Source: Candidatus Rokuibacteriota bacterium
GTDB taxonomy: Bacteria > Methylomirabilota > Methylomirabilia > Rokubacteriales > CSP1-6
Length of the DNA stretch: 35,370 nucleotides
NCBI GenBank assembly: GCA_016188005.1
Contig: JACPIQ010000074.1
Span: forward strand, 1 to 35,370
Reading direction: 5' to 3'
Position numbers and translations under genes: made by a program. This document shows positions 4,642 through 24,950 of the stretch, piece by piece. Every line of letters starts with the position of its first letter. Within the stretch, counting starts at the first letter, position 1. Under the pieces are notes generated by a model, which saw only the letters and a list, made by a program, of their open reading frames with translations, was not told the origin of the DNA and did not search any database.

Positions 4642-5030
4642 CGGCCGCGCCCGGCGCCCGCGCGTATCGCCAGCCCTCCGGGGAGCCGCCGCATCTCGTC
4701 GGCAGCCGGTGTCGCGGCTGCGGCTGGATCTCGTTCCCGGCGCGCCCGGTCTGTGGCGGCTGCGGGGCCGAGCCTACCGACGAGGTGCCCGTGGGGCGCC
4801 GCGGCCGCATTCGATCGAGCGCGGTGGTCCACCACGCCCCGATCGGCTTCGAGCCGCCGTATATCGTCGCGCTCGTCGAGCTGGAGGAGGGACCGATCGT
4901 CTTCTGCCCGATCACCGGCTGCCCGCCGCAGGAGGGGGCGGCGGCGCCGGGGACGGCCGTCGAGCTCACCGTGGCGCCCGCCCGGCCCGGCGGGACACCA
5001 GTGTTCCAGTTCCGGCCCGCGCAGGCGTAG
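4638..5030 (+). CDS. DUF35 / OB-fold zinc-ribbon protein, thiolase partner
   Basis: Small acyl-CoA-binding protein (130 residues) with an N-terminal rubredoxin-like zinc ribbon followed by an OB-fold. The ribbon cysteines are Cys25, Cys28, Cys39 and Cys42 (CRGCGWISFPARPVCGGCG). The OB-fold part has the characteristic RGRIRSSAVVHHAP...YIVALVELEEGP pattern. Proteins of this family bridge thiolases to partner enzymes: archaeal thiolase/HMG-CoA synthase, and ChsH2 with the Ltp2 aldolase. The start at 4638 overlaps the thiolase stop (ATGA), and a longer frame beginning at 4515 would run inside the thiolase gene and is not supported. Tight coupling to the thiolase indicates an obligate complex. Confidence 0.88.
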   Translation: MTAAPGARAYRQPSGEPPHLVGSRCRGCGWISFPARPVCGGCGAEPTDEVPVGRRGRIRSSAVVHHAPIGFEPPYIVALVELEEGPIVFCPITGCPPQEGAAAPGTAVELTVAPARPGGTPVFQFRPAQA

Positions 5031-5057
5031 GCCGAGAGAACCGCCGAGGAGGCGCGC

Positions 5058-10969: not shown

Positions 10970-11746
10970 GTGGGCGCCATGCTGGAGGTCCAGGGCCTCT
11001 CGAAGCAGTTCGGCGGACTCCGCGCCGTGGACGACCTGTCCCTGACGGTGGACGAGGGCAGCATCGTCGGGCTGATCGGGCCCAACGGCGCCGGCAAGAC
11101 CACCGTGTTCAACCTGGTGACGGGGCAGCTCAGGCCCACCGCGGGCGACGTGCGCTTCAAGGGCCGGCGCACCACGGGCATGCCGCCCCACCACCTGGTG
11201 CGGCTGGGCCTCGTCCGCACCTTCCAGTCCACGGTCCTCTACAGCGACTCCTCGGTTCTCGAGAACGTCCTGCGCGGCGCTGCGGTGCGGAGCCGCGTCG
11301 GGTTCTGGAGGGGGCTCGTGGCGTCGCGGCAGGCCGCGCGGGAGGAGCGGGAGGTCCGGGAGCGGGCGCTCGAGCTGCTCGACTTCGTGGAGCTCGGCCC
11401 GCTGCGGGACGAGCTGGCCCGGAACCTCCCGTACGGGCATCAGCGGGCGCTCGGCGTGGCCATCGGGCTGGCGACGGCGCCGGCGCTCCTCATGCTGGAC
11501 GAGCCCGTGGCGGGGATGAACCCCGAGGAGACGGCGCACATGGCGCGGCTGATCACCCGGGTCAACGCGCGCGGCACCACCATCGTGGTGGTCGAGCACG
11601 ACATGAGCTTCGTCATGCAGCTCTGCCGGGAGATCGTCGTGATGAACTACGGCAAGAAGATCGCCGAGGGGACGCCCGAGCGCATCCGCAATGACCCGGC
11701 CGTGGTCGCGGCCTACCTGGGGGTGGACGAGGATGCCCCGGCTTGA
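10970..11746 (+). CDS. livG: Branched-chain amino acid-type ABC transporter ATPase LivG
   Basis: Cytoplasmic ATPase of Liv importer 1 (258 residues from GTG 10970; ATG 10979 gives 255). Walker A is GPNGAGKT, the Q-loop is VRTFQST, and the signature motif is LPYGHQRALGVAIGLA, the LivG variant of LSGGQ. Walker B is ALLMLDEP followed by VAGMNPEET, and the switch His is in VVVEHDM. The C-terminal extension typical of LivG (GKKIAEGTPERIRNDPAVVAAYLG) is present. GAGGGGAG at 10955-10962 serves as ribosome-binding site. The stop overlaps livF by 14 bases. Confidence 0.93.
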   Translation: MGAMLEVQGLSKQFGGLRAVDDLSLTVDEGSIVGLIGPNGAGKTTVFNLVTGQLRPTAGDVRFKGRRTTGMPPHHLVRLGLVRTFQSTVLYSDSSVLENVLRGAAVRSRVGFWRGLVASRQAAREEREVRERALELLDFVELGPLRDELARNLPYGHQRALGVAIGLATAPALLMLDEPVAGMNPEETAHMARLITRVNARGTTIVVVEHDMSFVMQLCREIVVMNYGKKIAEGTPERIRNDPAVVAAYLGVDEDAPA

Positions 11747-12440
11747 CGTGCGCGACCTCCACGTCTCCTACGGCAAGGTGCGGGCGCTGCAGGGGGTGAC
11801 GCTCAGCGTGGAGGAGCGGCAGATCGTCGCCATCGTGGGCGCCAACGGCGCCGGGAAGAGCACGGTGCTCAAGGCCATCATGGGGCTGGTGCCCGCCGCC
11901 GCCGGGGAGCTGCACTTCGGCGACAGGCGGCTGGACCACATGTCCTCTCCCGGCATCGTGAGAGCCGGAGTGGCCATCTGCCCCGAAGGGCGGCGGCTCT
12001 TCCCGGAGATGACCGTGGAGGAGAACCTCCTGATGGGCGCCTACCAGCGCGGCAGCCGCGAGGCGGCCGCGGCGCTCGCGGAGGTGTACGGCTACTTCCC
12101 GATCCTGACCGAGCGCAGCCGCCAGCTCGCCGGCAGTCTTTCGGGCGGCCAGCAGCAGATGGTCGCCATCGGCCGGGCGCTCATGTCGGGGCCGCAGCTC
12201 CTGCTTCTGGACGAGCCGTCGCTGGGGCTGGCGCCCCTCGTCGTCCGCGACATCGCGAGCATCATCCGGCGCATCCACGCGCGGGGCGTCTCCGTGGTCC
12301 TGGTCGAGCAGAACGCGCGGATGGCCCTCAGGCTCTCTCACCGCGCCTACGTGATGGAGACGGGGCGGGTCGCCCTGTCCGGGACGGGCGAGGAGCTGCT
12401 CAACAACGCCCAGGTCCAGCGCTCCTACCTTGGGCTCTGA
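11733..12440 (+). CDS. livF: Branched-chain amino acid-type ABC transporter ATPase LivF
   Basis: Second ATPase of Liv importer 1 (235 residues from ATG 11733, normal LivF length). Walker A is GANGAGKS, the signature is LSGGQQQM, Walker B is LLLLDEPSLGLAP, and the switch His position reads VLVEQNA, the usual LivF form in which the His is absent. The end ELLNNAQVQRSYLGL is typical. The chosen start lies inside the end of livG (14-base overlap); an upstream in-frame start at 11691 would add residues unrelated to the family. It is the last gene before the 240-base gap with the long inverted repeat. Confidence 0.93.
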   Translation: MPRLDVRDLHVSYGKVRALQGVTLSVEERQIVAIVGANGAGKSTVLKAIMGLVPAAAGELHFGDRRLDHMSSPGIVRAGVAICPEGRRLFPEMTVEENLLMGAYQRGSREAAAALAEVYGYFPILTERSRQLAGSLSGGQQQMVAIGRALMSGPQLLLLDEPSLGLAPLVVRDIASIIRRIHARGVSVVLVEQNARMALRLSHRAYVMETGRVALSGTGEELLNNAQVQRSYLGL

Positions 12441-12476
12441 TGTCCTGTCTCGGGGATCGGAGGAGAGGGCGGCGGC

Positions 12477-12613
12477 CGCGGCAGGGGGCCCTCCCCGCGG
12501 AACACGCTGAGTCGCGACCCGCGGCAACGGCTCGTCGGGAGCCACGAGATCGAGGTCTTGGGCTCCGGTATCGCGCAGAAGCCACGGTTCCGCGGGGAGG
12601 GCCCCCTGCCGCG
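12477..12613. repeat. Perfect 27-base inverted repeat spanning 137 bases between livF and hyuA
   Basis: The left arm at 12477-12503 and right arm at 12587-12613 are exact reverse complements over 27 bases. They enclose 83 bases (12504-12586) that hold smaller complementary pieces such as GGCTC/GAGCC and CTCGT/ACGAG. The whole lies in the only sizeable gap (12441-12680) of the plus-strand run. It could be a miniature transposable element with terminal inverted repeats, a strong end-of-operon structure for Liv importer 1, or a regulatory RNA structure ahead of hyuA. There is no T-tract, no flanking target duplication that I can see, and no second copy in the window. Confidence 0.8.
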
Positions 12614-12680
12614 CCCGGGTCTGGCGCCATGGCTCGTGAGTAGTCAGGCTTAGAGATTTCCGCTCGGGAGGGGAACCGAG

Positions 12681-14717
12681 GTGGCGAAGCTACTGGGGAT
12701 CGACGTGGGAGGGACCTTCACCGACCTGTTCTACCTCGACGAGGCCACGGGACGGGTCGGCATCAGCAAGGCGTCGACGACGCCGCAGGACCTGTCCGTG
12801 GGGCTCTTCAACGCCATGGCGCACATCGGCGTCTCGGCGGCGGAGATCGACCTCTTCATCCATGGCACGACCATCGCGACCAACGCCATCATCGAACGCA
12901 AGGGCGCCCGCTGCGGCCTCATCACCACGCGGGGGTTCCGGGACGTGCTCGAGCTGGGGCGCCGCGACCGGCCGCACCTGTACGGCCTGCACGGGGTCCA
13001 GGAGCCGCTGGTGCCGCGTGACCTGCGGCTGGAGGTCGGCGAGCGGATGAGCCACCGCGGCGAGGTCGTGGAGCCGCTCGACGAGTCCGGCGTGCTGAGG
13101 GCCGGGGAAGTGCTGCGGGCCCGGGGCGTGGACGCCGTGGTGGTCTGCTTCCTGCACTCCTACGCGAACCCGGCGCACGAGCGCCGGGCGGGGGAGCTCC
13201 TCCAGGCGCTCGATCCCCGCTGGACCGTCAGCCTCTCCTCGGAGCTCCTCCCGGAGTTCTACGAGTTCGAGCGCTTCAGCACGGCCACCGTGCACGCCTT
13301 CCTCCAGCCGATGGTGGCCCGGTACGTGGGGGCGCTGAAGGAGCGGCTGGCCGGTGCCGGCTTCCACCGGGACGTGCTCTTCGTGCAGTCCAACGGCGGC
13401 ATCATGTCGAGCGCCACCGCCTGCCAGCGGCCGGCCAACCTGGCCCGCTCCGGTCCGGCGGCCGGCGTCACCGCCGCCAGCTACGTGGCGCGGCTGGCCG
13501 GCTTCGACAACGTCATCTCGGCCGACATGGGAGGCACGAGCTTCGACGTGTGCCTGATCCCGGGCGGGCGGCCCCACACGAGCGACGAGACCCAGCTGGA
13601 CTTCCGCCTGCCCCTCCGGGTGTCCATGATCGACGTGCACACGATCGGGGCCGGCGGCGGCAGCATCGCCTGGATCGATCGCGCCGGCATCCTGCAGGTC
13701 GGCCCGGAGTCGGCCGGCGCGGACCCGGGCCCCGCGGCCTATGGCCGGGGCGGCACCAGACCGACAGTCACCGACGCCAACCTCGTGCTCGGACGGATCG
13801 ACCCCGGCTTCGTGCTCGGTGGCCAGCACGGCATGCGGATGGATCCGGACGCCGCGGCCCGGGCCATCGAGGCCGAGGTGGGCAAGCCCCTGGGGCTCGG
13901 GCTCGAGGAGGCGGCCACCGCGATCATCCGCGTGGCCAACAACAACATGGCCGGGCGCATCCGGATGGTGTCGGTGGAGCGGGGGTATGATCCCCGGGAC
14001 TTCGCCCTGGTCGCCTTCGGCGGCGCGGGTCCCCTCCACGCCGCGGCCCTCATGAGGGACGTGGGGATCGGGCGCTCCATCATCCCGTACTATCCCGGCG
14101 TGCTCTGCGCCCTGGGCTGCGTGACGGCCGACGTGCGCCACGACTTCGCGCGCACCGTGATGCGGAGCCTGGACGACCTGGACCCGGCCGGCTTCCGCGC
14201 CATGGTCGAGGAGAGCGTGGCGGACGGGGTCCGGCTCATCCAGGAGGAAGGGGTGCCCGTGGAGCGGGTGGACGTGCTGCTGGCCGCCGACATGGCCTAC
14301 GAGGGGCAGCGGCACAATATCCGGGTCAGCCTCCCCGCCGAGCTCACCCGGGAGGCCATCGCGGCGGCCTTCGCCGAGGCCTACCGGGCCGAGTACAAGC
14401 AGACGCTCGCCGGCCTCCCCGTGCGCCTCACCACGCTCAGGGTGACGGTGCTGGGGGTCCGGCCCCGGCTCGACATCGCGGGCTGGGTGGCCGGCGCCGC
14501 CGGCGGGACGCAGCCGCCGAAGGGCCGGAGGCGCGCGTACTTCGACGGCCGCTATCACGACACCCCGGTCTACGCCCGGGCGGCCCTGTCCCCGGGCAGC
14601 GAGGTCCCGGGCCCCGCCATCGTGGAGCAGGAGGACTGCACCACCGTCCTCGAGCCGGATACGACGGCGCGGGTCGACCGGCTCGGCAACCTGATCCTGG
14701 AGGCGAGACAGCGATGA
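12681..14717 (+). CDS. hyuA: Hydantoinase/oxoprolinase family protein, HyuA subunit
   Basis: ATP-binding subunit of the N-methylhydantoinase / 5-oxoprolinase / acetone-acetophenone carboxylase superfamily (678 residues). The N-terminal phosphate-binding motif is GIDVGGTFTDLFYLDEATG. The second motif, FIHGTTIATNAIIERKGARC, is highly typical, as are SADMGGTSFDVCLI, TIGAGGGSIAWID and FGGAGPLHAAAL. GTG 12681 follows GGGAGGGG by seven bases. The next gene is HyuB with an ATGA overlap, so they form a heteromeric enzyme that spends ATP to open a cyclic amide or activate a carbonyl or carboxyl group. The substrate is not predictable; there is no acetone-carboxylase gamma subunit nearby. Confidence 0.93.
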   Translation: MAKLLGIDVGGTFTDLFYLDEATGRVGISKASTTPQDLSVGLFNAMAHIGVSAAEIDLFIHGTTIATNAIIERKGARCGLITTRGFRDVLELGRRDRPHLYGLHGVQEPLVPRDLRLEVGERMSHRGEVVEPLDESGVLRAGEVLRARGVDAVVVCFLHSYANPAHERRAGELLQALDPRWTVSLSSELLPEFYEFERFSTATVHAFLQPMVARYVGALKERLAGAGFHRDVLFVQSNGGIMSSATACQRPANLARSGPAAGVTAASYVARLAGFDNVISADMGGTSFDVCLIPGGRPHTSDETQLDFRLPLRVSMIDVHTIGAGGGSIAWIDRAGILQVGPESAGADPGPAAYGRGGTRPTVTDANLVLGRIDPGFVLGGQHGMRMDPDAAARAIEAEVGKPLGLGLEEAATAIIRVANNNMAGRIRMVSVERGYDPRDFALVAFGGAGPLHAAALMRDVGIGRSIIPYYPGVLCALGCVTADVRHDFARTVMRSLDDLDPAGFRAMVEESVADGVRLIQEEGVPVERVDVLLAADMAYEGQRHNIRVSLPAELTREAIAAAFAEAYRAEYKQTLAGLPVRLTTLRVTVLGVRPRLDIAGWVAGAAGGTQPPKGRRRAYFDGRYHDTPVYARAALSPGSEVPGPAIVEQEDCTTVLEPDTTARVDRLGNLILEARQR

Positions 14718-23705: not shown

Positions 23706-24950
23706 ATGCGAGAGGCGGGCACGATGATGGCGGCGGTGCTGCTGGCCCTGGCGGCCCTGACCTTGGGGGCGGCGCCGGCGGTGGGGGCGGAGGACGAGAT
23801 CCGGATCGGCGCGGTGTGGGGGCTCACGGGGCCCACGGCGGGCGTGAGCCAGGAGGGCCGCCGCGGGATGGAGATGGCCCAGGAGCTGATCAACAAGAAG
23901 GGCGTGCTCGGCAAGAAGATCCGCGTGATCTTCGAGGACGACAAGGCGGACCCCGCCGTCGGCGTCTCGGCCACCGAGAAGCTCATCACCCAGGACAAGG
24001 TGGTGGCCTTCGTGGGCGGGGTCGGCAGCACCATCTGCAACGCCATGCTCGGCGCCTTCGAGAAGTACAACCCGCGCCCCATCGGCGTCCTCACCGGCTG
24101 CGGCGCCACCACCATCGAGCAGCGCTTCGGCAAGGAGCGCGGCTACTTCTTCATCCACCCGTGGGAGTACTACTACCAGTCCACGATGCGGGACTTCCTG
24201 TTGAGCCTGGCCCCCAGGCCGCAGACAGTCTTCATCGGTCACGAGGACCGCCTGTACGGGACCTCGCATGCCAAGATGGCCGACGAGTACTTCCGGGAGG
24301 CGGGGTTCAAGGTGGTGGCGCGCGAGGGCTTCAAGTCGGGCGCTCCCGATCTCACGCCGCTCCTCACCCGGGCGAAGGGCATGAACCCGGACGTCTTCTA
24401 CTGGATCGCCTACGGCGCCGACGCGATCCTGATCACCAAGCAGGGCAAGGAGCTCGGCTTCAACCCCCGGCTCTACGCGAGCACCGTCCAGCTCGGGACG
24501 CAGGAGTACCGCGACGCCGTCGGCCTGAACAACGCCGAGGGCTTCGTCGGCATCACGGTGTGGGAGCCCGCCGCGAACTTCCCCGCCTCCCGCGAGTGGC
24601 CCGATCTCCTGCCGTCGACGCGCGACTGGGTGCGGGACTACACCGCGCGCTACAAGCGCGAGCCCCACTACTACTCGATCATGAGCTACGTCGCCCTGGT
24701 GGCGGCGGCCAAGGGGATCGAGGCGGCGGGGAGCCTCGACCGGGACAAGGTGGTGGCGGCCATCGAGAAGATCACCACCATGTCGCCCATGGGCCCGCTG
24801 AAGTTCTCGCCGAGCAAGTTCGCGGTGAACCACGCCTTCAAGCAGATGATGATCTTCCAGTGGCAGAAGGGGCGCAAGGCGCTGCTCTTCCCCCGCGACA
24901 CCGCGACGGGGCCGGTGCAGTACCCGTTCACGCCCTGGGCCCAGCGCTAG
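23706..24950 (+). CDS. Branched-chain amino acid-type ABC transporter substrate-binding protein (Liv importer 2)
   Basis: Periplasmic type I binding protein (Peripla_BP_6 family, 414 residues). A signal peptide is evident: MREAGTMMAAVLLALAALTL, then an Ala-rich cleavage region around residue 28. The mature part begins EIRIGAVWGLTGPTAGV. An AAAGGAG lies upstream of ATG 23706. The protein differs clearly from the first binding protein (for example FVGGVGSTICNAMLGAFEKY in the pocket region), so the two importers probably have different ligands. The gene sits between livF2 and livH2, an order different from importer 1. Confidence 0.9.
   Translation: MREAGTMMAAVLLALAALTLGAAPAVGAEDEIRIGAVWGLTGPTAGVSQEGRRGMEMAQELINKKGVLGKKIRVIFEDDKADPAVGVSATEKLITQDKVVAFVGGVGSTICNAMLGAFEKYNPRPIGVLTGCGATTIEQRFGKERGYFFIHPWEYYYQSTMRDFLLSLAPRPQTVFIGHEDRLYGTSHAKMADEYFREAGFKVVAREGFKSGAPDLTPLLTRAKGMNPDVFYWIAYGADAILITKQGKELGFNPRLYASTVQLGTQEYRDAVGLNNAEGFVGITVWEPAANFPASREWPDLLPSTRDWVRDYTARYKREPHYYSIMSYVALVAAAKGIEAAGSLDRDKVVAAIEKITTMSPMGPLKFSPSKFAVNHAFKQMMIFQWQKGRKALLFPRDTATGPVQYPFTPWAQR

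Follow-up and report, generated by a model that had tools for sequence, protein, structure and literature searches.

A perfect inverted repeat between livF-like and hyuA genes of a Rokubacteria genome lies within a dispersed repeat, probably an IS630-type MITE with a conserved core

Several families of short bacterial repeats can be compared with the one described here. RUP of Streptococcus pneumoniae, an IS630-Spn1 type MITE, is likewise a small non-coding repeat with a TA target and IS630-like ends, but it is 107 bp long, shares its genome with its partner, and is described without mention of a conserved core in the relevant sections of the source (PMC2229807). The Correia/NEMIS repeats of Neisseria also have TA at their ends, terminal repeats, and transcripts proposed to form long stems; they differ in sequence and host, and the same sections distinguish two size classes that differ by an internal 50 bp, with no mention there of a conserved apical core (PMC2229807). 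The CIR repeats of alphaproteobacteria are intergenic, contain a conserved GANTC and consist of two linker-joined arms, comparable in this to the two-headed units of genomes G020 and G052 (see below); they are described as ~110 bp long and without clear MITE ends (PMC2229807), whereas our element has ~160 bp per arm, lacks GANTC in many A-type copies, and is single at most of its places in its own genome. REP/BIME repeats with RAYT share with it the pairs of palindromes in opposite orientation at gene ends, but our element is much larger, has IS630-like ends and adjoins no RAYT gene. Among IS630-family elements, ISY100 is described as inserting at TA and duplicating it (PMC2170065).

Searches of the open-access literature on Rokubacteria repeats and mobile elements, on covariation or structure in MITEs, and on IS630 MITEs and stop codons retrieved no paper naming this family, and a term search found neither IS630 nor Rokubacteria in the main text of a 2024 review of prokaryotic MITEs. 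An IS630-type MITE is a known kind of element, and ours is otherwise ordinary; its unusual and distinctive part is the well conserved, folded core.

The window analyzed here (the whole stretch of 35,370 nucleotides) had been reported in a preliminary description to contain an exact 27-base inverted repeat around 83 bases, and this was confirmed: the arms at 12477-12503 and 12587-12613 are complementary at 27 of 27 bases and, with one mismatch allowed, extend to 31 bases (12473-12503 and 12587-12617, 97%). When the whole window was shuffled 40 times with dinucleotides preserved, no perfect pair of at least 16 bases within 250 bases occurred; the repeat is real and not a product of chance. For a 240-base region, the folding energy is -145.6 kcal/mol on the + strand (z -4.8 against shuffles) and -128.5 kcal/mol on the - strand (z -4.4). 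The repeat is the inner part of an element of ~211 bp; the span 12477-12613 first given for the feature is exact for the arms, and the element is larger, about 12440-12650. Nor is this the only large gap in the region, as had been stated: 4642-5057, another stretch between listed ORFs, is longer, with at most one weak ORF possible inside it. The features of the locus are listed below, the + orientation of the element being an arbitrary choice of the strand on which the core motif reads 5'-3'.

11691..12440, + strand: upstream gene, livF-like ABC ATPase (Pfam ABC_tran), with its stop codon at the insertion point
12438..12439, no strand: left target TA, now TG, within the TGA stop of the livF-like gene (the G001 empty site reads CTC TAG; the mutation is inferred)
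12440..12650, + strand: whole element, about 211 bp (limits from the G001 empty site and the ends of other copies)
12440..12462, + strand: left terminal repeat ATGTCCTGTCTCGGGGATCGGAG (compare TAGTGTCCTGTCTCAGAGATCCG of copy L093)
12473..12503, + strand: left stem arm, by sequence complementarity (12477-12503 perfect, 27 bases)
12500..12590, + strand: core, 91 bases, GAAC...GTTC, of near-fixed length across the family
12509..12513, no strand: GAGTC, a GANTC site, at the same place in 62 of 85 copies
12574..12590, + strand: strongly conserved core motif CGCAGAAGCCACGGTTC (variant CGCAGAAGATACGGGTC in G052)
12587..12617, + strand: right stem arm, by sequence complementarity (12587-12613 perfect, 27 bases)
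12628..12650, - strand: right terminal repeat, degraded (weak match to the end consensus, 7/13)
12651..12652, no strand: right target TA (window sequence and G001 empty site)
12681..14717, + strand: downstream gene hyuA, hydantoinase A (Pfam Hydantoinase_A)

Downstream of the element hyuA is followed by hyuB (Pfam hydantoinases A and B). In the sister genome G001 the two flanks, 88% (livF) and 85% (hyuA) identical, are 8 bases apart, compared with 228 in the window. The junction reads CTC TAG GAGATC at this empty site and CTC TG, element, TAG AGAT in the window; livF and hyuA are close neighbors in G001 and are separated by the insertion in this genome. The element might instead act in cis between livF and hyuAB, as a terminator or as a regulatory RNA (the latter suggested earlier as an RNA preceding hyuA), which would agree with the very stable fold, with the position between two same-strand genes and with the location of copies at gene 3' ends. 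Such a role is contradicted by the orthologous G001 junction, which lacks the element, by the location of copies next to many different genes, in either orientation and without strand preference, and by the Rfam search, in which no family reached its gathering score in the window. We regard this explanation as very unlikely, and a riboswitch or terminator of hyuA is rejected by the empty site together with the absence of orientation bias. Elsewhere Rfam gave sub-threshold matches alone; those to mir-1295 and mir-642, far below the gathering scores, were taken as chance hairpin matches. A side effect of the element on read-through is possible, and any effect of the insertion on hyuA expression is a matter of conjecture.

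Five further own-genome loci (C4, C26, C28, C68, and C122) were searched with joined flanks, and the sites of C4 and C26 proved to be empty in G001. The flanks of C28 were about 2.6 kb apart, the joined flanks of C68 had no match, and for C122 one flank alone matched in G001. At C4 the right flank diverges shortly past the junction; at C26 the left TA has apparently been lost, and in G002 this site retains a remnant of the element's left end, followed by other inserted DNA. No orthologous flanks of L093, a young copy of G002, were among the matches listed in G000 or G001, and for the pair L135 of G052 the left flank alone was found, in three of four genomes.

The preliminary description had proposed to look for further copies in the source genome and its relatives. 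A BLAST search of the own genome with 12440-12680 as query returned 43 matches, several of them merely the opposite arm of one copy, which correspond to 25 distinct places (fragments included) with differing flanks. Exact matches to a 17-mer of the core number 20 in the own genome, 15 in G002, three in G023, two in G003 and one in G001; the other 143 of 148 genomes have none. In a collection of named genomes, 14 stretches were found, all from Rokubacteria MAGs (GWC2_70_16, GWA2_70_23, and NC_groundwater_277). A covariance model of the family has matches in 17 of 94 genomes, its counts possibly including both strands of one palindrome; the element thus also occurs in related soil bacteria, and the spread across genomes is patchy. 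Other genera also yield weak matches, 137-143 bases long, at E 1e-6 to 1e-5 (L153, G039:C28, G014:C55, and G032:C41), which may represent a remoter branch of the family. Neither plasmids and phages (blastn) nor viral contigs (pattern search) had a match to the element, and an origin from phages or plasmids was rejected on these grounds.

Some individual copies deserve mention. The copy at positions 1-400 of contig C30 of G000 (L013), at the contig start, has flanks that are mirror images of one gene end; this copy, retained in the alignments, is likely a fold-back artefact of assembly. An element of ~100 bp at G000:C28:35196 (L099) has both terminal repeats and the outer stem without the core. 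In addition, a second kind of repeat end (CTATTGACTCTTGCCGAATACGGTTACG and TAACGGTAATCCGCAAGAGTCATTAG) was observed at TA sites in G002:C21 near L249 and in the right flanks of G000:C122 (L022) and G000:C60 (L011), where it adjoins or replaces the hairpin element; these ends probably represent a second MITE family.

The terminal repeats of the element (TAGTGTCCTGTCTCAGA) resemble the ends of IS630-family elements in related genomes. The best-preserved young copy, L093, has CTAGTGTCCTGTCTCAGA at both ends and CTAG on both sides; many copies have no recognizable ends. A single TA is found at the three empty sites (the window copy, C4, and C26), and at each of the three filled sites one TA has been mutated or lost. 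TA within CTAG is reportedly the preferred target of IS630. The duplication may instead be the 4-bp CTAG (IS5-like), and the two cannot be distinguished at most sites, because CTAG is palindromic. Genes of IS630 type (DDE_3) are present in 30 of 60 genomes, and in 30 DDE_3 loci we identified five end-like matches (two in L210, one each in L214, L220, and L230) against 0.1 expected from mononucleotide shuffles. L210 is a complete IS630-family element of 1176 bp with a match at both ends and CTAG on its flanks; by eye, the ends of L210, L214, and L230 share 18-19 of 23 positions with those of our element. The one DDE_3 gene of the own genome has different ends and was rejected as a partner.

The element is thus dispersed, lies at TA in CTAG-like sites, has IS630-like ends and is absent from the orthologous site of the sister genome, in agreement with the miniature mobile element that had been suggested initially. 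It is short (~211 bp), multi-copy and without coding capacity, and we consider it very probable that it is a non-autonomous DNA transposon (MITE) of IS630/Tc1-mariner type. A transposase with matching ends was not found in the fragmented assembly of its own genome, nor was a DDE_3 gene found in the likewise fragmented assemblies of G001, G002, G003, and G023, some of which hold many copies. Presence of the partner in the same genome is not strictly required; it may have been lost or may be missing from the draft assembly.

If the element were REP/BIME-like and mobilized by a RAYT (Y1) transposase, this would account for the BIME-like convergent pairs of copies, and G002, G004, G020, and G052, all rich in copies, each have a single RAYT-like gene. 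However, none of the four RAYT-like loci contains a copy at E 0.01 within the 5-8.5 kb around each gene, the sequences adjoining these genes are of another kind, the own genome, G003, and G023 hold copies but have no Y1 match, and the ends of the element fit IS630. This explanation was rejected because the element does not flank the RAYT-like genes, and we give it very little weight. The four single-copy Y1 genes (L174, L175, L176, and L177) have GGGGTCAGGTCT in the flank of three of their four loci, with an inverted copy downstream in L176. Similarly, an RNA-guided mobile element, for example of guide-RNA type (HEARO/IscB omega RNA), would be in keeping with a multi-copy structured element downstream of stop codons, but no HEARO match was detected in five loci searched up to E 10 or in five searched up to E 5, and such an origin appears extremely improbable.

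The MITE interpretation also offers an account of where the copies lie. CTAG occurs three times in the window (24947, 33429, and 34574), compared with 92 expected in 35 kb, and at 24947 and 33429 it forms stop codons according to codon-model gene ends. Hardly any CTAG in this DNA lies outside stop codons, which places the copies at the 3' ends of genes. We placed 86 copies with fetched flanks against genes from a codon model trained on the window; 76 of them have a gene on both sides, 33 convergent, 39 codirectional and 4 divergent, in counts that take pair members singly and may include wrong weak gene calls. Between codirectional genes, 17 copies are in sense and 22 in antisense orientation, that is, without bias. 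By manual count, 14 copies have an upstream stop that ends 24-26 bases ahead of the model start, where the element begins; these stops are TAG in 12 cases and TGA in two, compared with TAG at 6 of 29 in the window overall.

Conservation of the interior was analyzed in an alignment (A3) of 85 copies from nine genomes. It was gathered with a model derived from an earlier alignment (A2), itself gathered with the core motif, and invariance of the core is therefore partly built in. A set of 18 own-genome copies comes from the plain-BLAST places and was then picked by a loose motif, which dropped the fragments C25, C45, C95, and C1; C56 and C49 were left out. With the stored structure, 95.9% of cells in A3 are paired, 24 of 34 stem pairs have changed on both sides, and such changes occupy 340 cells against 102.7 in shuffles. 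The covariation score is 0.323, compared with at most 0.072 for the slid structure, and the strongest mutual-information pairs are stem pairs. The structure noted in the core at the outset is thus matched by strong compensatory change in the stem, which belongs to the repeat family and not to hyuA. Most helices within the core show no covariation because they hardly vary, and their pairing is putative. The interior is a long stem kept by compensatory change, and the core at its apex is nearly constant in length and has strongly conserved motifs.

A functionless core is possible, though we doubt it: the copies would have descended recently from few masters, and template switching at the palindrome, which copies one arm onto the other during replication, would have kept their arms complementary. 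In agreement with this explanation, pairing is better in the inner stem than in the outer one, as expected from correction at a hairpin, and copies of related genomes cluster in parts of the tree. Against it, mean identity over the 85 copies is ~0.89 in the two core motifs, compared with 0.73 in the stem arm and 0.56 in columns 51-75 (the core being part of the query), and the apical core of ~91 nt keeps its length within a few bases across genera. GANTC is found at columns 44-48 in 62 of the 85 copies, with G or C as the middle base in 61; by subtype, it is present in 45 of 47 B-type and 15 of 36 A-type copies. This site recalls the CIR repeats.

Twelve close pairs of copies were detected (six in G052, four in G020, and one each in G004 and G000), 11 of them convergent and one, at a contig end of G020, tandem. 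In the phylogenetic tree, each of the ten G052 and G020 pairs and the G000 pair combine one A-group and one B-group copy; the G004 pair falls in a G004 group. A simple stem-base label rule miscalls a few of these, and the assignment follows the tree, whose support is moderate. We read the pairs as a two-headed unit, made of two diverged subtypes in the two related species G020 and G052; alternatively, paired copies may be independent insertions side by side.

In the mechanism that we propose for the MITE, an IS630-family transposase is predicted to act in trans on the ends of the element. Insertions would fall at gene 3' ends, where the junction TAG would still be usable as a stop. Least certain is the step at which the core would be recognized as a folded strand, either an extruded DNA hairpin or RNA, during spread; we hold the chances for and against it to be about even, and selection would then act on the element itself rather than on livF or hyuA. 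More speculatively, and on balance doubtfully, the core may be a structured RNA or single-stranded DNA of an unrecognized class, one that is perhaps read by way of GANTC methylation, is carried by the IS630-type MITE and is needed for its spread; in G020 and G052, two diverged versions would form the convergent two-headed unit.

The striking palindrome of this locus is thus explained, with high probability, as a mobile repeat, and its distribution accounts for the accumulation of such repeats at stop codons where CTAG is rare. If the core is truly under selection, the MITE would carry a structural function beyond its ends.
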